IMG/VR virus record: IMGVR_UViG_3300030103_005372
Coordinates: 1 to 22,138 of that record
DNA length: 22,138 nt
From: a virus
Reading direction: 5' to 3' (one strand)
This document shows positions 1,779 through 18,540 of this stretch, piece after piece (the first letter of the stretch is position 1; each line of letters begins with the position of its first letter). The translations under genes and the position numbers were made by a program. The notes under the pieces are model-generated. The model did no database searches. It worked only from the letters and a program-made list of their open reading frames with translations, and had not been told where the DNA came from.

Positions 1779-2918
1779 TCATTGTAGGTCGCGAATGCTC
1801 CCGCTTGCGCCAAAGAACGAACACCAAAGTTCGCCCATTGTTCGGTAAAGCCCCTCTTGTCCAAGACGGTTAATCGCGAATGGGTCGCCAGTCTCAATAC
1901 CGCTTTCGTAGTATTGGGTTGGGATTGCAGTTTGGAACCACAAGTAGTCCGTGTCCAAGTAGTAGATGCGCGACAGACTGCTTGCGCCTTCGTCGGGCAT
2001 GTCCTTGGTTGGAATCATTGGAACGCCGTTGTAGGTTGCGACGATGAACCCAGCCTCAAGACCGGGGACACCCTTCACGCCGTTGTAGGTAGGCGTAATT
2101 CGCTTGCTGTCCATGAATCGCTGTTGGGATTGGAGCAACTGCTGAACGCGCATCAAAGTGTCGTAGCCCGTAAGCATAACCTTCGGGTTACCACCACGAG
2201 TCCAAAGTTGCTGGAACAATCCGTCCATTTGATTGAGGGACAGGTTGCGGTTAGAGGAGGCAACATCAACTTCTGCGCTGTGGAAAGCGGCGGAACCATC
2301 GCGAGTGATGGAGTAGATGTCGTGGTCCGTGGTTGCGCTTACATGCGCTGTTCCGATTGTCATCTTGTCGGGGTCGGACACAAGTCGGTCAAGCGACTCA
2401 AAGTCGTTTCCGGCTGGGGTGTCAATGTCCTGCAAGAGCATGCGGTTGATGTGTTCAGCGTGGTGCTTACCCATCTCTTCCTTCAAGACTTGGCGGACAT
2501 CGCCCATACCGTCGTCCTTGTCGGAAAGGAACATGCTCACTTCGGACAAGTCAAAAGTGTGCGCGACAGTCTTGGGCTTTGCGGCCACATGCAAGAATTC
2601 GGGTCGGCTGGTGTCGGGAAGAACGCCGTTCTCCGCGATGCCACCGCCCTTGGTAAAGGAAGCGCGCTCCGTGAGGATACGCCATCCACTTCGCTCCCAC
2701 GGCTTCTTTGGCAGAATGGAGAACGCGTTGAACTCTTGGTTCAACTGCGACCACACTTTGCGACCGTAGATTGCTTGGTAGGTTCCCGCGGTGCTGGACA
2801 TGAGAGGGCTGTCAGCCTTCAAAATGTCGCTTGACCCGTAGGTGTATCCGGTTTGAGAAGCCCCACCGTAGTAGTAACGCTCCATGTCTTGAACAGTTCT
2901 CACATAATTTCGTGCCAT
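1779..2918 (-). CDS. Major capsid protein, HK97 fold
   Basis: At 379 aa this has the length and layout of an HK97-type major capsid protein. Residues 1-34 form an N-terminal arm; roughly 60-115 fit the E-loop region; KHHAEHINRMLLQDID (about 151-166) fits the spine helix region; PKVMLTGYDTLMRVQQLL (245-262) and GVKGVPGLEAGFIVATYNGVPMIP (280-303) carry the P/A-domain signature near the C-terminus. It assembles the icosahedral head. SDILKADSP around K34/A35 could be a maturation cleavage site resembling the K/S site in HK97. The start codon overlaps the protease stop (TGATG) with GGAGGTGAAT upstream. The gene order protease then capsid protein supports the call. Confidence 0.92.
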   Translation of the reverse strand: MARNYVRTVQDMERYYYGGASQTGYTYGSSDILKADSPLMSSTAGTYQAIYGRKVWSQLNQEFNAFSILPKKPWERSGWRILTERASFTKGGGIAENGVLPDTSRPEFLHVAAKPKTVAHTFDLSEVSMFLSDKDDGMGDVRQVLKEEMGKHHAEHINRMLLQDIDTPAGNDFESLDRLVSDPDKMTIGTAHVSATTDHDIYSITRDGSAAFHSAEVDVASSNRNLSLNQMDGLFQQLWTRGGNPKVMLTGYDTLMRVQQLLQSQQRFMDSKRITPTYNGVKGVPGLEAGFIVATYNGVPMIPTKDMPDEGASSLSRIYYLDTDYLWFQTAIPTQYYESGIETGDPFAINRLGQEGLYRTMGELWCSFFGASGSIRDLQ

Positions 2919-3802
2919 CAGTATTCACCTCCGTTCAACGCTTTTCCTGCAAGTCGGTGGACATCGTCCCACGACATGTTTGCAAGTTCGGCGGTGTCGG
3001 GAATGGTTACGCTTGCAGTCGCGGCGGACTTTGCAATCGTAGAAGAGCCGGACGAAACATTGTCAATCCGGTCGTTGAGGGCAAGGACTGCCTTCTGCAA
3101 CTCAACCATTGGAGCGCGAGCATCAAAGTTGGACTTTGCAATTTCGTTCTCCTCGGCCTTTTGCTCCTTGAGGAAGCGTTCGGTGAAGTGGCTGTTCAAG
3201 TCAGCCTTGAATTGTTGCTCGGTAGCCGCGGCTTTGAACACCTCGTAAGCGGACTCAATCTCGGACTGCGAAACATTCGCGGCGTTGAGATAGTCGGACT
3301 TGATGACATTCTTGTTGCCTGTTGGGGCAGAGCCGAAGTTGGGTTGTGGACGCTTGCCGGAATCGTCTTCGCCAGCACCTTCAAGGGAACCCTGTCCGCG
3401 CATGTCAAACGATGTTTCTTGTGGTCCGTAGCCCTTGCCGAAGTGGTCGCGAGCGGCGTTCGGGTCATACCCTGCGCTCTTTGCAGTCTGCTCAAGCCAC
3501 ATTAGGTAGTCGCTCGTAATCATGTCATCTCCTTTTTTCATGTCTTTCTTCTCCTTTTTGTCTTCGTCGTCGTCGGCATACATCATGTCTTCGTTTTCGT
3601 CGTCTTCGTCGTCGTCGTCGTCGCCGAATGGACCGGGGTCACCATCACCGTCGGGGTCAAGTGAACGAGGCATCGTTTTCTTCTTGGGCTTTTCATCGTC
3701 CATCATGCCTGCGTCTTTTTCTTCTTTGTCCTTGTCATCGTCCTCTAATTTCTTTGAAAGACGCTCAAGCACGCTTTGTAGTTCGCTCATCGTGTTGGTC
3801 AT
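2918..3802 (-). CDS. Possible nested scaffold protein, internal in-frame start (294 aa)
   Basis: Met178 of the protease-scaffold protein falls exactly at the end of the protease domain. Its codon (3802-3800) is preceded by GGTGA at four-base spacing, with GGAGG further upstream. This is as good as the sites used by confirmed genes in this operon; the giant-protein gene also uses GAGGTGA with four-base spacing. An internal start would give a free 294-aa acidic scaffold, as lambda Nu3 is made inside the protease gene C. The site could also arise by chance from the codons for KEDTGEN. Confidence 0.4.
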   Translation of the reverse strand: MTNTMSELQSVLERLSKKLEDDDKDKEEKDAGMMDDEKPKKKTMPRSLDPDGDGDPGPFGDDDDDEDDENEDMMYADDDEDKKEKKDMKKGDDMITSDYLMWLEQTAKSAGYDPNAARDHFGKGYGPQETSFDMRGQGSLEGAGEDDSGKRPQPNFGSAPTGNKNVIKSDYLNAANVSQSEIESAYEVFKAAATEQQFKADLNSHFTERFLKEQKAEENEIAKSNFDARAPMVELQKAVLALNDRIDNVSSGSSTIAKSAATASVTIPDTAELANMSWDDVHRLAGKALNGGEY

Positions 3803-4333
3803 ATTCTCACCGGTATCCTCCTTGAGTATGCGAAATTGTGCTTCCGGGTTGATACCCTTCTCACAAATCGTAACCTCGTGGAGTTCCATGCGACGGATTT
3901 CGCGGTAGTCGCCGCGCGTTTGGTCGCTCTTGTTGACGCGCTCAAATGCTTGACCGCCGATGGAGAACGAGCGCAGGCTCCCCTTGCGGATTTCCGAAGC
4001 CACTTCGCGTGCCTTCTCAATGTCGCCGCGCAACTTGATGACGACGAACATGCCGGTGTCGTCAACTTCCGACTTCCACAAACGACCCGATGAGTCGGTG
4101 TAGGAAGGGATGACGCTCCCGACTTGAATGTTAGAGTGAGCAAGTTGCACATTGCGAAAGCCATCGGCTTTCATAAATTTGCCAAACGCGTCTTTCAATG
4201 CTCCGCGTGTGATGAGGTCGCCTTGCTTGTCAACCATCTCAACTGACGCGTATCCAGCGACAACCAAGTCGTTACCAATCCCCTTCAAAATGATGGGGTC
4301 GGAGGACGAAGCAGGTGCCGCGAGAATCGCCAT
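2918..4333 (-). CDS. HK97-type prohead protease fused to acidic scaffold region
   Basis: Residues 18-175 match the HK97 prohead protease family (peptidase U35): a GYASVEMVDKQGDLI strand, a candidate catalytic His66 in NVQLAHSN, GSVIPSYTD, EKAREVASEIRKGSLRSFSIGG with candidate Ser122/Ser124, and ELHEVTICEKGINPEAQF. The family cleaves scaffold and capsid N-termini in the prohead. Residues 178-471 are unlike the protease: an Asp/Glu/Lys-rich stretch (about 197-270), a linker, a helical region (350-430) and a tail MSWDDVHRLAG. This part is probably the scaffold (delta-domain function). An internal start at 3802 may express it alone. GGGTGAGC precedes the ATG. The capsid gene follows with a one-base overlap. 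Confidence 0.9.
   Translation of the reverse strand: MAILAAPASSSDPIILKGIGNDLVVAGYASVEMVDKQGDLITRGALKDAFGKFMKADGFRNVQLAHSNIQVGSVIPSYTDSSGRLWKSEVDDTGMFVVIKLRGDIEKAREVASEIRKGSLRSFSIGGQAFERVNKSDQTRGDYREIRRMELHEVTICEKGINPEAQFRILKEDTGENMTNTMSELQSVLERLSKKLEDDDKDKEEKDAGMMDDEKPKKKTMPRSLDPDGDGDPGPFGDDDDDEDDENEDMMYADDDEDKKEKKDMKKGDDMITSDYLMWLEQTAKSAGYDPNAARDHFGKGYGPQETSFDMRGQGSLEGAGEDDSGKRPQPNFGSAPTGNKNVIKSDYLNAANVSQSEIESAYEVFKAAATEQQFKADLNSHFTERFLKEQKAEENEIAKSNFDARAPMVELQKAVLALNDRIDNVSSGSSTIAKSAATASVTIPDTAELANMSWDDVHRLAGKALNGGEY
3560..3622 (-). repeat. Asp/Glu codon-repeat tract in scaffold region
   Basis: Runs of GAC/GAA codons (gtc/ttc on the plus strand) encode a D/E-dominated stretch at residues 238-258, broken only by N, MMYA. 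It is an imperfect trinucleotide tract that can change length by slippage. In the protein it makes a highly acidic, disordered segment of the scaffold. Confidence 0.7.
3807..3811 (-). promoter_or_regulatory. Internal ribosome binding site (GGTGA) before Met178
   Basis: GGTGA, with GGAGG at 3817-3821 just upstream, sits inside the protease coding region four bases before ATG 3802. It is the main evidence for a nested scaffold start at the domain boundary. Confidence 0.4.
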
Positions 4334-4351: not shown

Positions 4352-7300
4352 TCATCCTATATGAAAGGAACTCTTCTCAACCGCGATTACCCCGTCCTCT
4401 TCCAGCGTTGCTTCTTCACCTTCGGTGCTTCGCAGTCGCTTGGTTTTCTTGGCCGTAGCGGGTTTCAACTCATCATCTCTTCGCGCTTGAGGGTCAAAGT
4501 CCGGCATGGTGTCGTCGCGAATGTTTTCAGTCGGGCCGCGAGGAGACTCGTCATAAGTCGCGTAACCAATACCCAACCCTTGAATTCCGGTGCTGGTCGT
4601 TTTCTCCTTCGTTAGTTGTTCCAAACCACGCTCCAACAATTCAAGCCCGCGCTTGATGACTTCTTCTTCCTCTTCCAACACTTTCTTTGGTTTCTTGCTG
4701 TGACCTGCTGGCGGTTCGGGGACGACCTCATCGTATTCCGGCTCTTCGGTTTTTTCTTTCAACAGCAACAGCGCGGCTGATGCTTCCCAATACGGCTCTT
4801 GGTCGCGAGCCAACTTGACGAGGTATTCGTTGCCCCATAGCGAAGAGTGAGGTTCAATGGTCCAAAGACCCTCTTCCTCACGCGTTTTGCAAATAACTTC
4901 ATCGTCAAATGCAGGGAACGACACCACGATGTTTCCTTTCTTCACAGACACCTTCTGCGGAACATTATGGTCGCCTGCCATGATAGCCAGCGTCTCCACG
5001 CTGTTTGCGGCAAACGGTTCGTTGTCGGTGATTTTCGCCGCACGGATTCGGTAGAGTGGATGTTCTTTCTTTGTCACCGAAACGCCGGTGCAACGCACCG
5101 TTGCGAAGTCGCCGACCTTCAATCCACGCGGTCCTTTTGCGCTTCCTACATTCATGTAGTGTTCATCGCCAACTTGTTGCGCGCGCTTCCCGTAGTGTTC
5201 CGGGTGCATGAGCGGACCAACACCGATGCCGTAAGTTGTGCCGGAGACAGAGAGTATGACGACATCCACGACCTTCTCCTTGGTGAGCAACACCCACTTC
5301 GGATGCCGAGGTTCACCTTTCATGTAAGTCGCGTTAGCGTCGCGTAGTAGGATGTCCTCTTCATTTTCTTTTAACAAACCGTCAACCGCGGTTTGCAACC
5401 CTTCGTCATCGCTACGCTTGGTGTTGATAGGTTCGGGCATTTTGATGTGTTCGCTGGATTCGTATTGAGCGCGTAGATGACGGATGCGGTCCTTGGTCGG
5501 CATGTTGTGCGTGTCTTCGTCTGCCGTCTTGAGCAAGTCAAGAACGGTCATTATTCCATCATGAAGAATCGCGTGAACCGTGAAGTCCTTTTCGTAGACT
5601 TTGTCCACCTCTTCCACAATCGCCTCATCCAACTTCACTTCTCCTTCTGCCCCATACGCTGTGAACTTTTTACCTTTCCTCGTCGCAATGACATGTTCGC
5701 CTTGTGGGTAGAGCGAGATGACCCAATCGCCCGTGAAGCCGCGCAAGTGTTGCATGTCTTCCAAGTCAAAAATGCGATGCATGAACTTGACAGGAGGTGG
5801 GCGACCGTCGTCCTTCATGAAGAGCGTGTCATCCATCAACGCGTTGAGTCGGAGGGAAAGAGAATACTGCATGATGTCGTCGTTGAGCGTGACCGGCGTC
5901 TCCTGCTGTGTTGGATGGGCCATGATGTTCTGTATTTGCTGACCCACGCGAATGTTGGGGTTCGGCTCCATACCTTGCGCGAACTCGGCGTAGTTGATGT
6001 GTTGCCGGTCGTTTATGTTGAGAGGCTTCAAGTCCCGGTTTACATGACGCATAGGGTCGCGATTCATGACGCTTTGCGTGGTGGGCATGGGGTTGTAAGC
6101 GTGGGCGTTGTCGTCTTCAATGATGAGAAAACCATCAGCCATTGCGTCTTCGTTGAAGGTGTGGGTGGACTTGGAAGGCAAGCCGAAGTGAAATTGATTT
6201 TCTCTTGACGCGTTGACGGGATAGGGGGAGGCATGAGCAAAGTCGCCACCGCTCGTGCCAACAGCCTGTTTGCCTCCCGTCAACACCGTGGCCGAGCCTG
6301 TTTTGGTGGTGTCACCCGTTGCTAACCCAAAGTTCAACAGCGACTTGGGGTCGGCGAAGTTCATCATTTTCTTTGCTGTCATGGCAACATTGCCTCGGAA
6401 ACCTCGCGCGACCGTGCTGAAGTCCATTGCGACATCGCTACCTTTGCCCGTCTCTTGCAGATAATGGTTCATGACCTCGCGAATAGCCTCGCGCTCTTGA
6501 TAGATGTTGATGTCCTTCTCTTGCCTCTTTGCGTTGACGACCTTTACGGTGTCGCCACCGTGGAGAAGCCCTTCTCGCTGTGCTTCGGCTGAACGGTGCA
6601 TACCACCCAAGTTGCCGCTCTTGATGTTCCTAAAAGAAGCAACCAATTGCTGTCGCAACTCTTCGTTGTTGACATTGGCAAAGTTGGGGTATCCCTCAAG
6701 GGGCTTCGCTTGAAGTGCGCGATTCTTGTATTTGTATCGCTCTCCCGACCGCTGATGTGGATAATAACGCGCGGCGAACGCTTCGGCAAAAGTGATGCCC
6801 TGTTCTTCTGCCGCCTTCTCAACTTCGGCCATGACCTTTTCGTAGATGGTAGTTGAGCGCGCATTGGCTTTTTTGCCCCCAGCACCTTGCGCTACGGAAA
6901 GCGCGGCTTTGTAGGCCGTTGGTTGACGACCTTCAAAATGTTCGTCCTTGAGATGACTGGCGAAGGATTCGTTGGCTTCATGAACTTCGCGCTGGGACGA
7001 CAAATCAATGATGCTTCTTTTTTCTTCTTCGCTGAACAGTTCGCCGAGAGTGAAACGCTTGCCGTTGTAGAAGAGGTTGTTCTTTGTCGTCATCAACTTG
7101 GCTCTCGCGGTTGGTCCAAGCGATTGCAACATTTCAGCAATGCGCATGGTGTAAGCGGTCATGTCATGGTCCGCGTTGGTGCCTTTGTTATACGCGTTCG
7201 GGATGTGTTTCTCAACACCCTTACGCAACATGTTGAACAGCGTCTTTGTGTTCCTGTGCGACTCAAACATGTTTGTCAAATATCGCTCCATGTTCTTCTG

Positions 7301-10300
7301 CGTCTCCTGTCCAGCACTTTCCACGGGCGCGTTGCTGTTCATGGCTGACAGCGTTTGACTCAACCGTTCTGTTTCTTCTTCGTCTCCCGCGCGTTGAGCC
7401 AAAGTCAAAGCGCGTTGCACTTTCGCGGCTTTTCGTTTGTAGATGTGAGCGGGTGTTGGTGCCACCACCAATCCCTGCAAAGAAACGCCTTCGTCCTCGT
7501 CATGTCGTTCTCGCAAACCGACATGAGTGCCTTCCTCAATTTTACCTTCGTTGATAAGTCGCGCAAGTTCAGCCTTGCGTTGCTCTTTCTGTCGCGGTCC
7601 GGCGTTTTGGTAGATGTTGTCAAGTTCCAACAGAGAATTGAGCAAGCGGTTTTTTGTCTTGATGCCATGAGTGACAGCCTCCGGCATGGGGTTGTGTTGA
7701 AGGTGGAGCAACTTCTCGCTGTCGTTCCACTTCTTCCATTCATCAGCGTCGTAAATAGCAAAGCGCGGGGTGGTTTCTTCTTCAAACAGGTCGTTGAAGA
7801 GTTGAGGATTTTTGCGACCGTAGCCGATGGGGTCGTGGTGCAACCTATTTTTCAACATCTCAACGCGCCTTCCATCGTTCTCCGGCTTGCTTAATTCCTC
7901 AAAGAAGTCCAACGCGTCATCGTCGTGAATGCTCAAATCGTGGTGCGCACCCATTGCGAGCGACATGAGGACCATCTGCTGTTCTTGCGTCAATTCGTCT
8001 TTCTTGGTGTGAAGAATGTTGCGCAAATCGGAGTCGGGCATTTGTCTTGATTTCGTCAAATTACGACTGTTACTGTTGCGAGCGTGGGTGTGGGTCGCTC
8101 GTAGGTTACGCTTGGGTGTCGCGTGCGTCACATCGTGCCGCGACTTAGGCATACTCTCAAGACTGGTGAAGCCGACCAAGTCCATGCCCTTCTCTTCCGG
8201 TTCTACGGAGCCTCGCGTGATGTGGTCGCTGAAAGGTGCGAGGAAAGAGTGAAGACTGCTGGTCGCGGGTATGCGTGGGTTTGGCATATCCCCTGCAAAT
8301 TCTTGCGCGTCGCCTTTGGGTAGTATCTCCAATGTCGCACTCATTGGGTCTTGCAGACGGTCGCGCTCAACGACCACGGGCTTGCCGGATTTGAAACGAG
8401 CAACCTGCTCGTCCAAGTCCGGCGAGTCTCCGAGGTCTTGACGCAGTTGGGCCAGCGTTTGCTCGTCCAACTCTTGGTCGCCGCTCGGCTCGTAAGTGTT
8501 CGTCTGTTCGGTCGTGGCGCGAGTTCTGCGTTTGTTCTCATCTCTCCGACGCGCAGGAAGGAAGGTGCGCTCATCCATCTCCTTGAACAACACATTCGGC
8601 ATTGCTTCGTGGAACAAGTTGTTGATGTCACCCTGTTCGCCGTGGGCGTTGCCATGATGTCCCAAACCGTCCATCAGCAGACCTTTAGCGGTCTTCTCAA
8701 CGACGGGTTCTTCGTTGACTTCAAAATCGTCTTTGACATCGTGCGTGTAGAGGTAGCCGTGCAACCCCTCGCGCAAACCAGCACTCTTTTCAAAATCGCC
8801 AAACGCGTTCACGGTGCGGTCGCATAATTCTTGGTAGATGTCCTCGTCTTCCTCAAAGAAACCTCCTTGATGTAGACGCTTCAAGTCGGGCAATTCTTCG
8901 TCCATGTAGATGTAGTCGCCATCAATCTCCGGGTATTGCCCACCTTCATTGACAACGATGCGACCTGTTCTGTCCGCAAAGCGTTCAGCGATGTCCTTCA
9001 TGTCAACGCCCGACAAGGCTTGCAGAAGCGTTTCGTCTTCAATGTTGTGCCATTCGCTTCCGTTGTTCAAACCTTCACGCAACTTATCCAAGCGCGCCTT
9101 ACGACCTTCTTCATTTTCGTCGGCCACTTTTTTGAGGCGGCGATTGCCAACGACTTGTGTGTGGCCGCGCGATTGCGGACCACCCGCATACATTCTGTTC
9201 AGCACACTCCCCATCAGCATGCTGTGATGCGACATGAAACCACGCGCGTCTTCTGCTGGCACGCCCAAAATTTTTCCCAAGTCGGCGTCGGTGCCAAGAC
9301 CACCCGCTTGTTTGAGCAACCACTTGCACATCTCAAAATTTTGTTCCGGCGGGAGCATGTAAGTGCCGAAAAGATAGGGAATGAGGCCGGTTCGTTTGCT
9401 TTCAATTTGCGGGTCGTTCTCCGCAAGGTCGCGTAGAGACTCCGCGGGCGTCATACCCTTGCGACCCTCTCTACGCAAGCCCGAAGCGTCATCGTTGATG
9501 ATTTCATTCATCACCGTTTTCTCATCAAGACCTTCGTTTATCCAATTCTTGATGAGCAGGTAGACTTTCGGTAGTTGCTTACTTTGCAAAAGAGGAGCCT
9601 GCTGACCGTATTTCTTTCTCATGGTGTCAAGAAATTGATTGTAGCCTTTTCCGTAAAACGCGAGAAGGTTCGCGTTAGAACCGTCCCACTTGGTGAATTG
9701 GTGAGGTTTTCTCAAATCAGCGTGGAGACCTTTCGCAACATGCCTCATCTTTCCATCAAGAAGGCGCGCGTTTTTGCCAAATGTTTCGTCTTCGGTTTTG
9801 TAGAGGTATCGCTTCATTTTTTGGAACATCGGTTCGCCAAACGAAACTCTTTTGCTGTGCGGTGGGTAGAGTTGCAGGGTCTCAAATTTGTGATGGCGAC
9901 CCGCGATGTCTTGGTGCAACTCGCGTCCTGTCGCCTCGTCTCTCACCGTGCGTTCTTTCCTGTTCGGAATGGTGTCAGCGCGCCACCCCATCGTTTTGCG
10001 AGCCAGTCTGTTCAACATGCTATCGTCGCCGCGTTGATGAGCCTCCAACGCTTCCAACAACATTTCCTCGTTGAAAATTTGCCGTGCTTTGAAATGGCGC
10101 GGAGGCGCGCGCTCCATGCTGGTGTCACGGCGAGAAATTGCCTGCGCCGTTTGTCGCGCTGGGACATTCAAACCCAAGTTGACTTTCGCTTTAGCGAGGT
10201 AAGCCTGCGCTTGCCCTTCATAGTAAGAAGCGTCATGACCGTAGTTGCGCATGTTTTGCGCACTTAGAATGACATTGACGGCTTCGTTTCTTGCATCAGC

Positions 10301-10369
10301 CTTGAGAAAAACAGCCTCTACAAACTCTTGGACAACTCGCGCGTTATACGCTACTGCATCCTCACGCAC
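4352..10369 (-). CDS. Giant 2005-aa head-region protein with degenerate DNA ligase-like domain
   Basis: The largest gene here begins with GTG after GAGGTGA and lies between the portal group and the protease. Residues 1-1500 are hydrophilic, rich in His, Asn and charged residues, without transmembrane segments or a fold I recognise. Residues about 1530-1790 follow the order of an ATP-dependent DNA ligase. WVISLYPQGEHV (1549-1560) aligns with the KxDGER motif I but has Tyr1554 for Lys and Gln1556 for Asp. ILHDGIMTVLDLL (1601-1613) fits motifs III/IIIa without the Glu. EDILLRD (1671-1677) fits motif IV, and HPKWVLLTKEK (1689-1699) motif V without its lysines. An OB-like segment follows (1700-1782). 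The domain is probably inactive and may bind DNA ends or serve as structure. The tail includes a coiled coil (EEEEEVIKRGLELLERGLEQL region) and basic stretches. It could be an internal virion or ejected protein. Confidence 0.85.
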   Translation of the reverse strand: MREDAVAYNARVVQEFVEAVFLKADARNEAVNVILSAQNMRNYGHDASYYEGQAQAYLAKAKVNLGLNVPARQTAQAISRRDTSMERAPPRHFKARQIFNEEMLLEALEAHQRGDDSMLNRLARKTMGWRADTIPNRKERTVRDEATGRELHQDIAGRHHKFETLQLYPPHSKRVSFGEPMFQKMKRYLYKTEDETFGKNARLLDGKMRHVAKGLHADLRKPHQFTKWDGSNANLLAFYGKGYNQFLDTMRKKYGQQAPLLQSKQLPKVYLLIKNWINEGLDEKTVMNEIINDDASGLRREGRKGMTPAESLRDLAENDPQIESKRTGLIPYLFGTYMLPPEQNFEMCKWLLKQAGGLGTDADLGKILGVPAEDARGFMSHHSMLMGSVLNRMYAGGPQSRGHTQVVGNRRLKKVADENEEGRKARLDKLREGLNNGSEWHNIEDETLLQALSGVDMKDIAERFADRTGRIVVNEGGQYPEIDGDYIYMDEELPDLKRLHQGGFFEEDEDIYQELCDRTVNAFGDFEKSAGLREGLHGYLYTHDVKDDFEVNEEPVVEKTAKGLLMDGLGHHGNAHGEQGDINNLFHEAMPNVLFKEMDERTFLPARRRDENKRRTRATTEQTNTYEPSGDQELDEQTLAQLRQDLGDSPDLDEQVARFKSGKPVVVERDRLQDPMSATLEILPKGDAQEFAGDMPNPRIPATSSLHSFLAPFSDHITRGSVEPEEKGMDLVGFTSLESMPKSRHDVTHATPKRNLRATHTHARNSNSRNLTKSRQMPDSDLRNILHTKKDELTQEQQMVLMSLAMGAHHDLSIHDDDALDFFEELSKPENDGRRVEMLKNRLHHDPIGYGRKNPQLFNDLFEEETTPRFAIYDADEWKKWNDSEKLLHLQHNPMPEAVTHGIKTKNRLLNSLLELDNIYQNAGPRQKEQRKAELARLINEGKIEEGTHVGLRERHDEDEGVSLQGLVVAPTPAHIYKRKAAKVQRALTLAQRAGDEEETERLSQTLSAMNSNAPVESAGQETQKNMERYLTNMFESHRNTKTLFNMLRKGVEKHIPNAYNKGTNADHDMTAYTMRIAEMLQSLGPTARAKLMTTKNNLFYNGKRFTLGELFSEEEKRSIIDLSSQREVHEANESFASHLKDEHFEGRQPTAYKAALSVAQGAGGKKANARSTTIYEKVMAEVEKAAEEQGITFAEAFAARYYPHQRSGERYKYKNRALQAKPLEGYPNFANVNNEELRQQLVASFRNIKSGNLGGMHRSAEAQREGLLHGGDTVKVVNAKRQEKDINIYQEREAIREVMNHYLQETGKGSDVAMDFSTVARGFRGNVAMTAKKMMNFADPKSLLNFGLATGDTTKTGSATVLTGGKQAVGTSGGDFAHASPYPVNASRENQFHFGLPSKSTHTFNEDAMADGFLIIEDDNAHAYNPMPTTQSVMNRDPMRHVNRDLKPLNINDRQHINYAEFAQGMEPNPNIRVGQQIQNIMAHPTQQETPVTLNDDIMQYSLSLRLNALMDDTLFMKDDGRPPPVKFMHRIFDLEDMQHLRGFTGDWVISLYPQGEHVIATRKGKKFTAYGAEGEVKLDEAIVEEVDKVYEKDFTVHAILHDGIMTVLDLLKTADEDTHNMPTKDRIRHLRAQYESSEHIKMPEPINTKRSDDEGLQTAVDGLLKENEEDILLRDANATYMKGEPRHPKWVLLTKEKVVDVVILSVSGTTYGIGVGPLMHPEHYGKRAQQVGDEHYMNVGSAKGPRGLKVGDFATVRCTGVSVTKKEHPLYRIRAAKITDNEPFAANSVETLAIMAGDHNVPQKVSVKKGNIVVSFPAFDDEVICKTREEEGLWTIEPHSSLWGNEYLVKLARDQEPYWEASAALLLLKEKTEEPEYDEVVPEPPAGHSKKPKKVLEEEEEVIKRGLELLERGLEQLTKEKTTSTGIQGLGIGYATYDESPRGPTENIRDDTMPDFDPQARRDDELKPATAKKTKRLRSTEGEEATLEEDGVIAVEKSSFHIG

Positions 10370-10378
10370 TTTCTCACC

Positions 10379-10732
10379 TCAATAAAAGTCGGTGAGATTG
10401 TATGCTCCTTCGGGATTTTTATCGGATGGGTCGCCAGCCTTGTTCTCGCGCATCTCAACAACATTCGGCCATCCGGCATGTGTCTTGAGTTTTGCTTCCT
10501 CTTTCTTCGCGCCGGTGTTCTTGACATCCTCAACCTCAATCTGTTGCTGGTTCGTCCAATAAGTGCCGGGACGAACTTTGTCAACACCACGAACGCTTTC
10601 AAACGAGTCGCCGGTCTTTGACCCCAACTGCTTGCCTTTGGCCTCGGCCTTCTCAATCAACTCGTTGGCCTGCTTGATGAGTTCGTCAATATCGGGCGCG
10701 TGTTGTCCTGCTTCAACCTTCATTGGCTTCAT
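10379..10732 (-). CDS. Hypothetical helical protein, 117 aa
   Basis: The ATG overlaps the upstream stop (ATGA) and has GAAGGAGG at eight-base spacing, so expression is certain in principle. Residues 15-35 (IDELIKQANELIEKAEAKGK) form an amphipathic, coiled-coil-like helix; the rest is polar and ends PEGAYNLTDFY. No family is recognised. It lies just before the giant protein and could be a small head-assembly or connector partner. Confidence 0.82.
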   Translation of the reverse strand: MKPMKVEAGQHAPDIDELIKQANELIEKAEAKGKQLGSKTGDSFESVRGVDKVRPGTYWTNQQQIEVEDVKNTGAKKEEAKLKTHAGWPNVVEMRENKAGDPSDKNPEGAYNLTDFY

Positions 10733-11082
10733 TGGTCAATCCTCCTTCCTTCAACTTCCGCGGCGGTGTTCGCCATCGCATGAATATCATCCCATGACAT
10801 GTCGTGCCATGCTTCGTTCGTTTCGGGCATAGCCATGCCTGCGTCATCAATCGCGGCGGCGGCTTTGCTGATAACCGAATCGCGTTCGCCGCGTAATGGG
10901 TCGCCCCAAACATCCTCGTTTGCAGGAGTGTTGGTGCGAACAAAACCTGCGCGCTTAAGCAACAGTTCCGGTGTGTTCATGCTTTTTCGCATGGTTTGAA
11001 TTTCAGCGTCCATCGTCTCCATTTTGCTGATGAGTGCTTTCATCAGCAACATAGCGTCTCCGGCTTCCTCGGACACGCTCAC
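10729..11082 (-). CDS. Small head-region protein with scaffold-like SWDD tail, 117 aa
   Basis: Starts with GTG overlapping the upstream stop (GTGA), with AAGGA upstream. Residues 10-36 form a coiled coil (MLLMKALISKMETMDAEIQT). Residues 69-103 (SVISKAAAAIDD ... P-E-T ... MSWDDIHAMAN) align with the last 40 residues of the protease-scaffold protein (STIAKSAATA ... P-D-T ... MSWDDVHRLAG). Codons differ between the two copies although the peptide is kept, so the similarity is at protein level. It may be a minor scaffold or a capsid-interior protein that docks through the same tail. That role is inferred. Confidence 0.82.
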   Translation of the reverse strand: MSVSEEAGDAMLLMKALISKMETMDAEIQTMRKSMNTPELLLKRAGFVRTNTPANEDVWGDPLRGERDSVISKAAAAIDDAGMAMPETNEAWHDMSWDDIHAMANTAAEVEGRRIDQ

Positions 11083-11417
11083 ACCTGTCCTTGCTTCTTG
11101 AAGTATCCACCGATGCGGTCGGGACCGATGTAGCCCATCGGTCGGTCGCTCTTTGCGATGACTCCTTGAGTGCTGTTGAATTGAGCAACAGGGAAGCCAC
11201 CTGCAAATCGGTCGTTGACGCCTAACACTTTGTCGCCGCCTGTTTGAGATTTGTAAATCGCGGTCACATCGTCAGCGAGGAAGTCTGCGGTCGCGTTGAT
11301 ACTGCGTAAAAATTGTTCAGCAGATACGAGGTCGTTATTTGCAAGCGCGACTTTGAATTCCGACATAGCGGTCTCCAACTTGCGCACCATTGGGTCCATC
11401 TTCGCGAGCAGGCTCAT
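11079..11417 (-). CDS. Hypothetical head-region protein, 112 aa
   Basis: The gene follows the portal after a 31-base gap. The ATG at 11417 has no ideal ribosome binding site; GGGTGATG lies about 18 bases upstream, and an in-frame stop blocks longer versions. Residues 8-55 are helical (VRKLETAMSEFKVALANN, AEQFLRSINATADFLAD) and the C-terminal half is Gly/Pro-rich, including GVIAKSDRPMGYIGP. The IAKS site matches motifs in the scaffold and 604-aa protein. Function unknown; a small portal-associated or internal head protein is possible. Confidence 0.78.
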   Translation of the reverse strand: MSLLAKMDPMVRKLETAMSEFKVALANNDLVSAEQFLRSINATADFLADDVTAIYKSQTGGDKVLGVNDRFAGGFPVAQFNSTQGVIAKSDRPMGYIGPDRIGGYFKKQGQV

Positions 11418-11448: not shown

Positions 11449-13287
11449 CTATTGGAAGCCGCTTTCTTTTTGTTTCGCGGTCGGGTCTTTTGCCGCTTGA
11501 ACGCTATCAAGTGCTTCCTCAATGGGCGTTTTCTTCGCGCCGCGTTGATTCTTTTTTGTTGAAGGCGCGCCGGATTGATGCGTTTCGGAACTGATGGGGG
11601 CGGGACCACGGTCGCGTTGACCTGTTCCTTCGCCGAGACCAATAGCCTTCTCCATCATCATGATTTGACCGCCACCGGGAGAAGGCCCTCCACCTCCGGG
11701 GGGAAGCCCCACCCCCGGTGGCATCATCGGACCCCCACCCTGTGGAGGTATGCCGCCCCCCGGCGGCATAGGTGGAGGCATACCGCCACCGGGAGGCATT
11801 CCTCCGGGTGGCATACCGCCGCCCATCGCGCCGCCAGCCTGTTGTTGCATAGCGGCTTCTTGTGGGTCGGGTTTCTTGTAGACAAAGCGTATGTCGCGTC
11901 CAGCATCCTCGGTCAATTCCGGCTGGAACCCAAGAGCCTGCATACGCTGTGCGATGTTGACTTCCTGTTCGTCGCGTCGTAGTCGCGTAATTTCGTCTTC
12001 TTCTTCATTCGGATAAAGCGTGAGCGACCAATCGTGAACGCCCATCTGCTCAAGAAGGCGCGGGAATAACTCGCGAGAATACAATTTTTGTCCCGACTCA
12101 ACAGCACGGTTGGTCACGAGTATTTGCATCCCCTCGTTGTTGAGTCCGCCGGATTTGCCAGCGTCCATCATAAAAACATTGGATACACCGTAGAAAGCGG
12201 CTATGCGCATGCGGATTTCATCGCGAACCTGCGCGTATTGCATCTCGTCAAGACTGTCCATGAAACGAACGAACTCAACTTTGCCACGACCCGATGCTGA
12301 TTCAACACCAACTTTAGGAATGTAGTGCGGGTCGCGCTCCATTTTTTCTTCTGCGCCTTTCCAAAACGAAGCGGTGGATTGAATGTTGTCGGTGGTGATG
12401 GCGAGAACACCACGAGGTATGCGTCGTTTTTGATACGCGAGGTAAATGTAGTTGTCCATCGCGGTGAGCGATTGCGCCTGTCGCCACATGCTGGCGACGG
12501 GTGAGCGACCGTATAACTTGGACGGATTGAATTTTGAAAGGTGCAACACTTCACCGTCAATGTAATACTGCGTCTTGCCGCTACCTGCGGTGTTGATGTA
12601 GTGGACATCTTGGAGAGGAAGAGAACACACATCGCATTTGCTGTGGTCGCCGTTGTGCGGATATGTTTTATCGCGATGCACAGGACAAAGTAAGTAGCGT
12701 CCCCCGCGTTTGCCTGTTTTGTCAGCCACAATGCGCATGAAAGTTGGGTCACCACGCACCAACTCTTTGATTCGGAAAAATTCAATTTCACCACTCTTCG
12801 GGTCAATGAAATACTCCTTGATGAGCAACAGGAACGCGTCGTCAACGATGTCCAAGTCCCACTCAATTTCCTTCATCACCTCAATAAAAGACTGGTCCAT
12901 ACTGTTTCGCCGTTTCATCAACCACCGCGGGTAGAGGATTTGGTCCGCGTCGGGAGTCTCAAATTCTTCGTTTCCGCAGATGCGACATTGAGTCACGGTG
13001 TCGTGCTGATATTCTTCTTCGCAGTTGTTGCATTTCTTGTGAAATTTTTTCTCCCAATAGTAGCCGCGACGGAAAATTTCTTGGCAAAGCGTGTTGATGG
13101 TTGTTCGGAGGATAATGGATTCTTGCACCGTTGAATACAGAGCAGGTATGGATACGCCTTGGACGAGAACAGGTTCTTGAATCCCCGCCTTCCATAGAGG
13201 CATGATTGGTTCGGGGGTCGTGCGTCGGTTGAATGGACGCGTCAGCGACGATAAAAAACGCCCGACTAAGCCCTTTTCTTCTGCCAT
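11449..13287 (-). CDS. Portal protein with two inserted zinc-binding motifs
   Basis: 612 aa. The portal forms the dodecameric DNA channel at one head vertex, on which terminase docks. Portal-family features are VSIPALYSTVQESIILRTTINTLC, the long domain to about residue 470, KFNPSKLYGRSPVASMWRQAQSL (252-274), a spine region EEMQYAQVRDEIRMRIAAFYGVSNVF-like segment (348-372), and NRAVESGQKLYSRELFPRLLE. Unusual additions are a CxxC-x11-CxxC ribbon (C86, C89, C101, C104) and a second C201-x2-H204 ... C218-x2-C221 site. The C-terminus (485-540) is a Met/Pro/Gly-rich repeat followed by a basic tail. The ATG at 13287 overlaps the upstream stop (TGATG) with GGAG eight bases upstream; a TTG one codon earlier is less likely. 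Confidence 0.88.
   Translation of the reverse strand: MAEEKGLVGRFLSSLTRPFNRRTTPEPIMPLWKAGIQEPVLVQGVSIPALYSTVQESIILRTTINTLCQEIFRRGYYWEKKFHKKCNNCEEEYQHDTVTQCRICGNEEFETPDADQILYPRWLMKRRNSMDQSFIEVMKEIEWDLDIVDDAFLLLIKEYFIDPKSGEIEFFRIKELVRGDPTFMRIVADKTGKRGGRYLLCPVHRDKTYPHNGDHSKCDVCSLPLQDVHYINTAGSGKTQYYIDGEVLHLSKFNPSKLYGRSPVASMWRQAQSLTAMDNYIYLAYQKRRIPRGVLAITTDNIQSTASFWKGAEEKMERDPHYIPKVGVESASGRGKVEFVRFMDSLDEMQYAQVRDEIRMRIAAFYGVSNVFMMDAGKSGGLNNEGMQILVTNRAVESGQKLYSRELFPRLLEQMGVHDWSLTLYPNEEEDEITRLRRDEQEVNIAQRMQALGFQPELTEDAGRDIRFVYKKPDPQEAAMQQQAGGAMGGGMPPGGMPPGGGMPPPMPPGGGIPPQGGGPMMPPGVGLPPGGGGPSPGGGQIMMMEKAIGLGEGTGQRDRGPAPISSETHQSGAPSTKKNQRGAKKTPIEEALDSVQAAKDPTAKQKESGFQ
11668..11835 (-). repeat. MPPGG-type low-complexity repeat in portal C-terminus
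   Basis: Residues 485-540 of the portal consist of Gly, Pro and Met with repeated MPPGG/MPPGGG units, GC-rich in DNA. It is probably a disordered extension and a site of length variation among relatives. Confidence 0.75.
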
Positions 13288-14687
13288 CAAATCATCTCCA
13301 CAAGTCGGTTAGCGTCGTCAAGAAGACGAAGGGTTTCACCATCCCGACTGAACATCGCATGAACTCCCGCTTCATCAATGTTCCACTCCTTGAGCAATTC
13401 TTCTCGCTTGCCCGGAACATCCTTCCAATTCAACCATTTGACGATACGGTAGAGGTCATCGCGACGAGATTTGACAATGTCGCTTTTTCTACCGCGCAAA
13501 TCAAGTAATTCAAGAATAGCACCTGCTTGACCTTTCTTCATGCGCAGATGAGGACGCATGCCTTTCATCAATGCGCGTAGGTCATTTTCGCTGTAAAATT
13601 GAAGACGGTGTTGCGTTCTTCGGCTGTTCTTGTGAATTTTCAAATCCGTTTGTAGCACACCGCAACCTAACGCTTTTTGCAGTTGTTCGCAATGCATTTT
13701 GCCTCGTTCGCCCGTAGCAATAAATCCTGCGCGCGGCTCAAGCCTTTTCGTGATGGTGATGTAACCGTCTGCGTCAAGGAAACCTGCGGCGTAAGCCCAC
13801 ACATCCTTGAAAATGACATCGTTGCGAACAATACCCCAATTGATACCAACCTTCTCAATGTCATATTCAACGCCATGCATTTTGAACAACGAACTCAACT
13901 TCGCGGCGGATAAATGTTTCACACCGTCGCCCATGCTCGCAAAAATCTCATTTGAAGGTAGTGGTCCGCGCGCCTCAAGAATGTCTGCGGCTTTTGTGAG
14001 CCACATAGCCTCTCCTTTCTTGATGTTATCAACAGAATGCAAAGTGTTGCGCCACTCCTTCTTTGAATTCTTTTTAAGTTGTTGCGCGTCAACCCATGTC
14101 TGCCGTTGCTCTTTGTTGAAATCACCGTCAATCAACAACAACTTGCTGATGATGTCGTTTGCCTTCTCCCATTGAACGCAAGCCCGACGAAGTGCGTATT
14201 CGCGTGCTTTGCCATGTTTGCGAAGAGCAAGCAAATCTCGCTCGCTAATTCCTAAACTGCGGACGGTAGATTCGTGCTTGCCAATCCAGTCAATTGATTG
14301 AAGAGTTGCCTCAACTTCTTGCTTTTTCGCAATCCGAATAGCGTCAATGGCATAATCAATGGCTTCGCGCATGTCTTTATTTTCGCGTCGCGCCATTCGT
14401 AGGTCTTTGACCAAGTCTCCCGCACCGCGACCAAACATGGACTGAAACCAACCGCCGTCGGGGAGGGAACGGTTGAGTTGTTGTCTTACCATTTGTTGCG
14501 TTTTCTTTTTCTGCTCGCTCTCTTCAATTTCGTTCGGTTTGGGTGGCATTGGATTAGCACTCAATTGACCTGCACCGCCAGCGATTGGCTTTGGTGCATC
14601 ACCGAATGAAGCACCGCGTATGTCCGTCTTGACGAGAGGATGTGAGGCCAGCATCGTCGCGATGTCGTTAAGGTCAATGAGAGTCAT
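13287..14687 (-). CDS. Protein with LAGLIDADG endonuclease-like domain, 466 aa
   Basis: Residues 1-230 are Pro/Gly-linked then helical, with many charged residues and no family I know. Residues 236-295 look like a winged-helix segment (ILEARGPLPSNEIFASM ... LSAAKLSSLFKMHG). Residues 298-400 match a single-motif LAGLIDADG homing endonuclease: AYAAGFLDADGYITI (298-312) with acidic D305/D307, then QLQKALGCGVLQ and the ending MRPHLRMKKGQAGAILELL. No flanking intein splice residues are seen and the frame runs through to a 65-residue C-terminus, so this is a fusion, not an intein. It may be a domesticated nuclease used in DNA processing, or a selfish insertion in a structural gene. GGTGA precedes the ATG; the portal gene overlaps its stop. 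Confidence 0.82.
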   Translation of the reverse strand: MTLIDLNDIATMLASHPLVKTDIRGASFGDAPKPIAGGAGQLSANPMPPKPNEIEESEQKKKTQQMVRQQLNRSLPDGGWFQSMFGRGAGDLVKDLRMARRENKDMREAIDYAIDAIRIAKKQEVEATLQSIDWIGKHESTVRSLGISERDLLALRKHGKAREYALRRACVQWEKANDIISKLLLIDGDFNKEQRQTWVDAQQLKKNSKKEWRNTLHSVDNIKKGEAMWLTKAADILEARGPLPSNEIFASMGDGVKHLSAAKLSSLFKMHGVEYDIEKVGINWGIVRNDVIFKDVWAYAAGFLDADGYITITKRLEPRAGFIATGERGKMHCEQLQKALGCGVLQTDLKIHKNSRRTQHRLQFYSENDLRALMKGMRPHLRMKKGQAGAILELLDLRGRKSDIVKSRRDDLYRIVKWLNWKDVPGKREELLKEWNIDEAGVHAMFSRDGETLRLLDDANRLVEMI

Positions 14688-16943: not shown

Positions 16944-17140
16944 TTCTTTTTACCTCCCTTCTTTTTCTTGCCTTTGAACTTGCCGCGACAGTATTGAACA
17001 GCCCATCCGTTTGCATACGCGCTCGGATACACCTTGAACTTCCGCTTGGCCGCGGCTTTGCCAGCCGGACACAACTTCTTCTCAAGGTAGCCAAACGCGG
17101 CATCCGTTCCTACGCATAAATCACAATTACAATCAGTCAA
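16940..17140 (-). CDS. Small basic protein with CxCxxC and VYPSAYAN motif, 66 aa
   Basis: Starts with TTG overlapping the terminase stop (TTGA); an in-frame stop a few codons upstream and the lack of any internal ATG leave TTG as the start, though its ribosome binding site is weak. C4, C6, C9 form a CxCxxC, with C24 and C51 further on. Residues 27-49 (GKAAAKRKFKVYPSAYANGWAV) recall a motif seen in uncharacterised marine virus proteins. The tail is nearly pure Lys/Gly. Likely binds nucleic acid; role unknown. Confidence 0.78.
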   Translation of the reverse strand: MTDCNCDLCVGTDAAFGYLEKKLCPAGKAAAKRKFKVYPSAYANGWAVQYCRGKFKGKKKKGGKKK

Positions 17141-18540
17141 TCTAACAACCCCGCCATTATTTCATCCAAGTCCACAATGCGCTCACGGAATTCCGTGGTG
17201 GCCCAATGAGCCAACGCGAGAGCAATAGCAAAGTCGTCATGCCGACCGATGCTGTCAAGCCGTCCCTTCTTACTCATGCCGAACATGAGCAGTTCGCGCT
17301 CAAGTTCGGACATCAGCGTTCGGGAGCGGTCGTCGCCCCACGGCAGACGAATTTGCTCTTTCTCAAAGCGCAACACCAACCCCATGAGAAGCGACTCGCG
17401 GCGTTGGCGTGTGGAAATGAAAGTCTTGATTGGAAGGTCAGTATCCGCGCGCAGTTCTGTTGCGAACACGCGCTGAAAGTTGTTCGCCTCCAACTCTATG
17501 ACATCGGGGTTGAACTTCGCGTTCAACCGCTGAATCTCGGTGATTTGCGTTCGGAAATCCATATTCTTCCGGCGAACCGCGTGAACCAATTCAAGCAGTT
17601 CGGGATTGGTGGAGGGGCGACGAAGCACGACCATAACGGTATAGTCAGCCGAGCGGTCCGACGAAATAGCAGGGTCCCAGCCGATGAAGTATTGGTCATC
17701 GGGGTCGCCTACCTCACGCTCAATCAATTTCAGCGTTGAGTCTTTGGAGGCTTGGAGAATGGTTGAGGGGAAAAGACTGCTCACATCGTCCATCGGTTCG
17801 CACAGGTATTCGCGCGCAAACGCAATGGCTGGCATGTCGTTGCGACGAGCATCCAACGATTCCAAGTCCCACCGTTCCGGCCAAAGAGCCTCGCCTTTGG
17901 TGTTGATGGCAGGGTAGGTTTCAACGAGATAGCCTTCCCTGCTTTCCAACTCTGTGTAAAGGTCAGTTGGTGTAAACGGCGTTCCAACAATCATCAATTT
18001 GGAAGTGTGGTGAAGTGTCGGCACAAGGACTTCGTAAAACCACGAAGCGACGCGAGCAAGTTCGGTGTCCGTCGTTCCCCACAAAATGTCGTCGCAAAGA
18101 ATGAGGTCGGGGTGGATACCACGAATAGCACCACCGACCGACTTTGCGCTGATGTTGGACCCGTTGCTGAAACCGAAGAAGGTCTTTGACCATGAGTCCG
18201 CTTTTTTCATTTTTGCAAGGAACGGCACACCGTCAATCAAGTCGTTGAGGGTGCGCATGTGATGGATAGACTGATGCAGGCTGTGAGAAATCAACACGGC
18301 CTTCGTCTTGGGGTTGAACGCCGTCTTCCATAGCATGTAGCCGAGAAACAGCGTTGATTTGCCGTGGTCACGCGCGGCTTTGACACAATACCGCTTGCGC
18401 GATTCAAGGTTGTTATACCATTGCTCGTGGTGCCACGACAGTTGAAAGCCAAGTATCTCTTCAAAAAAGAATCTAAAATCGCGCTTCGCTACCTCAAAGT
18501 CAATCTCTTCAATTGCTTCAAGGGACAGCGACGACTGCAC
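17137..18540 (-). CDS. terL: Terminase large subunit (packaging ATPase/nuclease)
   Basis: 467 aa with both terminase domains. ATPase: Walker A variant AARDHGKST (55-63), Walker B LILCDD (146-151), and the VGTP coupling motif (185-188). RNase H-type nuclease: GWDPAIS with D289, VIELEAN (E349/E351) and GRHDDFAIALA (D435/D436). The enzyme docks on the portal, drives DNA into the prohead with ATP and cuts the concatemer. GTG start, with GGTGATG four bases upstream; six bases separate it from the preceding gene. No separate small terminase gene of usual type is adjacent; the 604-aa protein two genes upstream ends in a helix-turn-helix pair. Confidence 0.95.
   Translation of the reverse strand: MQSSLSLEAIEEIDFEVAKRDFRFFFEEILGFQLSWHHEQWYNNLESRKRYCVKAARDHGKSTLFLGYMLWKTAFNPKTKAVLISHSLHQSIHHMRTLNDLIDGVPFLAKMKKADSWSKTFFGFSNGSNISAKSVGGAIRGIHPDLILCDDILWGTTDTELARVASWFYEVLVPTLHHTSKLMIVGTPFTPTDLYTELESREGYLVETYPAINTKGEALWPERWDLESLDARRNDMPAIAFAREYLCEPMDDVSSLFPSTILQASKDSTLKLIEREVGDPDDQYFIGWDPAISSDRSADYTVMVVLRRPSTNPELLELVHAVRRKNMDFRTQITEIQRLNAKFNPDVIELEANNFQRVFATELRADTDLPIKTFISTRQRRESLLMGLVLRFEKEQIRLPWGDDRSRTLMSELERELLMFGMSKKGRLDSIGRHDDFAIALALAHWATTEFRERIVDLDEIMAGLLD

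Follow-up and report, generated by a model that had tools for sequence, protein, structure and literature searches.

We found that the C-terminal region of a giant protein encoded in a viral head operon (residues ~1528-1785 of 2005) is homologous to ATP-dependent DNA ligases and, as read from its sequence, is catalytically dead. We are almost certain that this region is derived from a ligase and is not a ligase. The best explanation is that a ligase core, composed of a nucleotidyltransferase domain and an OB fold, was co-opted long ago for a non-catalytic use. We favour a role in anchoring or binding, as part of a head-associated protein and without catalysis, and we give this reading a probability of roughly 0.55. 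It would be a clear case in which an enzyme of DNA metabolism has entered the head gene cluster of a tailed virus in a non-catalytic capacity, and a giant protein so far uncharacterised becomes a target that can be tested, with one conspicuous conserved module.

The giant gene and its neighbourhood

The window is the whole stretch of DNA that we analysed, positions 1 to 22,138 (22,138 nucleotides) of the IMG/VR virus record IMGVR_UViG_3300030103_005372. Its head gene cluster lies on the minus strand, to which all coordinates given below refer. The giant gene (4352..10369, 2005 aa) was identified by ORF calling and starts with GTG at a position that matches the start in relatives. Downstream it adjoins the gene of the head maturation protease (2918..4333; PHROG match E 1e-13, and synteny), which is followed by the gene of the major capsid protein, MCP (1779..2918; PHROG match E 3e-58, and synteny). 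Three small conserved genes, recognised as ORFs and by synteny (10379-10732, 10729-11082 and 11079-11417; span 10379..11417), separate the giant from the portal gene (11449..13290), which was identified by PHROG search and whose product is ~30% identical to the portal of the Haloarcula viruses HVTV-1/HCTV-5. The terminase large subunit is encoded at 17137..18540 (PHROG match E 2e-63).

We compared gene order at 15 loci representing all branches, each scored only as far as the locus extends. The order that they all keep is terminase, a LAGLIDADG/HNH-like gene, the portal gene, the small genes, the giant, protease and MCP. Orthologues of the giant are 1785-2400 aa long and are present in every branch of relatives.

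Homology and fold of the ligase-like domain

The original prediction had placed a ligase-like region at residues ~1530-1790 of the giant. The region is real. Its ligase-like part starts slightly earlier (at MHRIF, residue ~1530), and a further conserved beta/helix domain comes after it, reaching to residue ~1875. We distinguished three domains. The nucleotidyltransferase (adenylation) domain (residues ~1528-1697, 5279..5788) was delimited by NCBIfam and Pfam matches, AlphaFold2 and Foldseek. It is followed by the OB fold (residues ~1698-1785, 5015..5278), delimited by AlphaFold2 and missing from one clade of relatives. The post-OB beta/helix domain (residues ~1789-1875, 4745..5005) was delimited by AlphaFold2 secondary structure and alignment; in the alignment of relatives it is retained even where the OB fold is lost.

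The giant alone matched NCBIfam models of ATP-dependent ligases with E 2e-4 at full length and 6e-5 when only the domain was used, and it matched Pfam PF01068 with E 1e-3, which is below the cut-off of that family. NCBIfam ligase models matched 26 of 30 relatives (best E over all models 9.6e-8) and PF01068 matched 15 of the 30 (best 2.1e-6), while many giants in longer related contigs were above the PF01068 cut-off. When the domain was compared by hhalign with an intact Bacillus phage ligase, E was 3.7e-5; an unrelated terminase profile, used as a control, gave a probability of 0.1. A PDB sequence search with the giant alone returned nothing relevant. Pfam matches of giants to DUF4538, 7TMR-HDED and Snurportin were inconsistent between members and were rejected as noise.

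We modelled the domain with AlphaFold2, with no templates and with our own alignment of 30 relatives. The model had a pLDDT of 79 (mostly 80-91 in the nucleotidyltransferase part) and superseded an earlier run based on close relatives only, which had given a pLDDT of 51 and weak hits. As expected under ligase descent, it contained a nucleotidyltransferase fold followed by an OB fold. In a Foldseek search against the PDB the first 50 hits were all DNA ligases, the best being a Thermococcus ligase (E 6e-14, probability 1.00), and the search against viral models likewise retrieved mostly DNA ligases. TM-scores to solved ligases were modest (mostly 0.38-0.46, over two domains), which we attribute to the comparison of two hinged domains at once. 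The structure, together with the agreement of many profiles, ruled out chance resemblance. Structure prediction with Foldseek and a profile search had been proposed as checks in the original prediction, and both retrieved ligases.

The domain shares fold, domain order and framework residues with the core of ATP-dependent DNA ligases (PF01068 and OB; archaeal/LigD-type models), and motifs I, III, IIIa, IV and V have the same spacing. Unlike that core, it is embedded in a head-operon protein of 1785-2400 aa, its OB fold is lost in one clade, and all sampled members lack the nucleophilic Lys, the Glu of motif III and the first Lys of motif V.

Loss of catalytic residues

We aligned the giant with its relatives and located the remnants of the catalytic motifs. 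Motif I is reduced to LYPQGEH (residues 1553-1559, 5693..5713), in which Y1554 stands for the nucleophilic Lys, Q1556 for Asp and H1559 for Arg. Motif III is represented by FTVHAIL (residues 1596-1602, 5564..5584); VHAI replaces LDGE and the Glu position is I1601. The stretch from motif IV to motif V reads EDILLRDANATYMKGEPRHPKWVLLT (residues 1671-1696, 5282..5359), with L1694 and T1696 in place of the motif V lysines. The motif residues named in the original prediction lie where it had located them. Its motif IV, EDILLRD, does hold a Glu (E1671), but this position is not conserved among relatives.

The same loss was observed when the motif residues were read in homologues, as had also been proposed. 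Among 199 distinct relatives there was no Lys at the nucleophile position, which is mostly Trp, Tyr, Leu, Phe or Ile and in one clade also His, Gln or Met. Neither a motif III Glu (mostly Ile, Val or Thr; 0/199) nor a Lys at the first motif V position (Leu, Met, Val or Ile instead; 0/199) was found, and only one of the 199 had Lys at the second; hydrophobic residues or R/S/T/A stand in place of the motif V lysines. The table of 199 sequences required a GExRHPKW-type string, while an HMM-collected set of 160 distinct sequences did not, and in the latter, too, Lys was never found at the nucleophile, Glu never in motif III and Lys never at the first position of motif V. We do not expect ATP-dependent sealing of nicks, since the residue in place of the nucleophile is bulky or polar.

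The extent of the loss varies. Motif I reads WPxGER, KWYDGxR or [QH]KDGKR in relatives and motif III reads LDG[VI], so that some branches retain more of the motifs (KWYDGxR, TLDG[IV]) and others less, as in the giant studied here (YPQGEH, VHAI). The framework was kept throughout the 199 sequences (motif IIIa Asp in 197, motif IV Arg/Lys in 198, Tyr in 198, Trp in 199), and the stretch between motifs IV and V carries a family signature, TYMxGExxHPKW.

A constant domain in a fast-changing protein

The N-terminal three quarters of the giant (residues 1-1514, 5827..10369) evolve fast, apart from the first ~50 residues, which are conserved. Between the giant and relatives whose MCP is ~90-96% identical, residues 1-1514 are only ~30-40% identical, which is unusually fast evolution for a head-operon protein. 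In the same pairs the dead-ligase domain is ~80-82% identical and the C-terminal tail ~80%. For the domain dN was ~0.1-0.15 and dS was above 1 (partly saturated). When profiles of all branches were compared, the giant could be aligned throughout in two parts only, its first ~50 residues and its last ~620. Therefore the dead ligase is the constant core of a fast-changing protein. Pseudogene decay was ruled out by the near-invariant framework residues and the low dN/dS.

The giants of seven relatives (L142, L145, L148, L153, L156, L157 and L162) end with a Cys-rich, zinc-ribbon-like tail (CWCGAKxGEDCxQGMGHKxEDCP).

Loss of the OB fold and the proposed role

Catalytic residues are gone in every relative examined, yet the domain is the best-conserved part of the giant, and so it is probably a binding or anchoring part. 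We propose that the giant is associated with the head, probably on the inside and close to the portal. The lineage-specific work would fall to its fast-evolving N-terminal ~1,500 residues, while the dead-ligase module would be a constant anchor that ties the giant to a conserved partner. This partner could be packaged DNA, a conserved head protein (portal, capsid protein or protease), or both, and the contact would be made through a new, nearly invariant surface (HRIF...LRGF / LRDxxSTYMxGExxHPKW). The gene order points to the giant being present in the virion, which we consider somewhat more likely than not. Conservation of the domain leaves the surface used unspecified, and DNA binding may occur under the anchoring reading as well. 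Precedents for such a module are the inactive ligase domain of poxvirus A20, which belongs to a polymerase holoenzyme (PMC11142717), and catalytically inactive DNA ligase IV, which is reported to promote repair (PMC9638927).

The original prediction had suggested that a ligase fold without chemistry, encoded in the head operon, could bind nicks or DNA ends in the virion or after ejection. The first half of this claim is supported; the second is weakened, as the following comparison indicates. DNA ligases enclose a nick with the nucleotidyltransferase and OB domains together. In one clade of relatives (L439, L440, L463, L474 and most of L478-L535) the OB fold (~95 aa) is cleanly gone and the nucleotidyltransferase core joins the post-OB beta domain directly. 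The clade has a support of 100/99 and is nested among OB-bearing branches, and the loss is a single change on the tree. Nature has thus made a deletion in which the contributions of the two ligase domains can be told apart. As the OB fold was deleted and the core was kept, while ligases clamp nicks with both, the clade argues against a nick-clamping role and for a retained function that would reside in the core and the family-specific surface.

Such a binder would clamp nicks or DNA ends of the viral genome, either packaged or just ejected, and protect or mark them without sealing. The position among head genes fits this idea, and most branches retain the OB fold and the nucleotidyltransferase framework. 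Moreover, catalytically inactive human DNA ligase IV is reported to promote DNA repair still (PMC9638927). On the other side, besides the clade without the OB fold, the motif V lysines have become hydrophobic residues or R/S/T/A, and the most conserved segment, TYMxGExxHPKW, is a novelty of the family and corresponds to no ligase motif. Further, upstream of the ligase-like part there was no profile match to the helical N-terminal DNA-binding domain of larger ligases. We consider the nick or end binder unlikely; that anchoring rather than nick or end recognition is the main role seems to us an even call.

Somewhat less likely still, the giant could be an injected effector of the polyvalent type, whose dead ligase competes for a partner of the host ligase (e.g. 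the sliding clamp) or blocks repair or defence. Delivery together with phage DNA has been described for polyvalent proteins and, like MuF fusions, they are also giants near head genes, sometimes with inactive domains (PBECR, Mu MuF); the portions of that paper used here name RNA ligases among their domains and no DNA ligase domain (PMC5512222). In HVTV-1 (Druskaviridae), the same portal-protease interval encodes large proteins, gp113-gp115 (L172 16724-25058), which include a MuF protein and a 1313-aa zeta toxin/ADP-ribosyltransferase protein, and the N-terminal part of our giant evolves fast. However, gp113-gp115 have no ligase domain, and on comparison they showed no detectable homology to the giant. 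Searches of its 2005 aa with Pfam, PHROG and NCBIfam found no toxin, nuclease, MuF, effector or polyvalent domain, and the dead-ligase module belongs to what is constant in the protein, not to what varies.

A third possibility, which we regard as improbable, is a protein made with the head genes that works as a cofactor, without catalysis, at the replication fork. The middle domain of poxvirus A20 (MPXV A22) is an inactive ligase, with nucleotidyltransferase and OB fold, in a processivity factor (PMC11142717), and by that description it resembles our domain in being an inactive module within a larger viral protein. The viruses studied here also encode their own family B DNA polymerase. Nevertheless, A20 acts in a replication holoenzyme, belongs to an unrelated virus realm and lies outside a head gene cluster, whereas the giant gene sits between portal and protease, away from replication genes. 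This gene order argues against an A20-like processivity factor that would bind a polymerase or glycosylase. Finally, an active enzyme with changed chemistry, using another nucleophile such as the shifted Lys of KWYDGxR, is very improbable. In its favour, one branch retains DGxR with a Lys one residue off, and the Asp of motif IIIa and the Arg/Lys of motif IV hardly vary. However, most branches have no such Lys, none retains the Glu of motif III, and a hydrophobic residue always occupies the first position of motif V.

Distribution among viruses

Up to 489 IMG/VR contig stretches encoded a relative in one scan. Four scans used the GExRHPKW string or a variant of it, and therefore the full conservation of that string is partly built in. 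Scans based on MCP, which are blind to the domain, recovered the same domain in marine relatives with enough upstream sequence, with the exception of L417, L418 and L472; the HVTV-1-like viruses (L400-L416) were also without it. No Lys nucleophile was present in the motifs read among members of the MCP-based scans. We did not find a cellular or proviral copy in a scan of cellular genome contigs, and when 50,697 phage records were searched with the domain by tblastn, no homologue appeared, the nearest match being a true DNA ligase at E 4.

By portal, the nearest named viruses are the haloarchaeal HVTV-1/HCTV-5 (~30% identity), which lack the domain. The viruses studied here are abundant, and relationship and literature assign them to marine archaea, probably Poseidoniales, as hosts. 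Genome size, PolB, an ERCC4 nuclease, a portal of the Druskaviridae type and the ligase-like gene next to the protease would be in keeping with Magrovirales.

The reported DNA ligase of magroviruses

Magroviruses are said to encode a DNA ligase (PMC10768690, PMC12999244, PMC10160649). In the Group A magrovirus contig_156409 an ATP-dependent DNA ligase gene was reported in 2020 beside the prohead protease gene (PMC7318539), which is the same place as that of the giant gene, and such a ligase is also listed in family profiles (PMC12999244, PMC10768690). It has been described as a replication enzyme, whereas the domain of the giant lacks catalytic residues in every sequence examined. Because of the shared place beside the protease, the reported ligase of Magrovirales may be the dead giant. 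PF01068 searches covered 52 contigs of related viruses, several of which are 95-118 kb long, and gave matches inside the giant ORF or none at all; no NAD-dependent ligase was found in 16 long related contigs. The fuller proposal, that the magrovirus ligase is the dead giant, that these viruses depend on the host ligase and that the domain is now a conserved virion anchor, is in our estimate equally likely to be right or wrong. If true, an enzyme of DNA replication would here have become a component of the head. The ligase of Poseidoniales viruses has been cited for independence from host replication, and this statement may need revision.

Other proteins of the cluster and its relatives

The protein encoded at 13287-14687 on the minus strand resembles LAGLIDADG/HNH endonucleases (PHROG HNH match E 1e-10 in its C-terminal part) and precedes the portal gene in relatives too, with ~37-45% identity. 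Since it is kept at this place, it looks like a fixed head or packaging gene and not a mobile homing element. In the portal protein (11449-13290), two stretches rich in Cys resemble zinc fingers (CNNC...CRIC; CPVH...CDVC), and the long C-terminus is rich in Pro and Gly. The head protease (2918-4333) contains a long low-complexity stretch rich in Asp, Glu and Lys, which is perhaps a fused scaffold. Very large tail-region ORFs were observed in relatives L082, L086 and L090-L093, and a 102.9-kb relative encodes a tail-region ORF of 5020 aa (G014 42893-57955).
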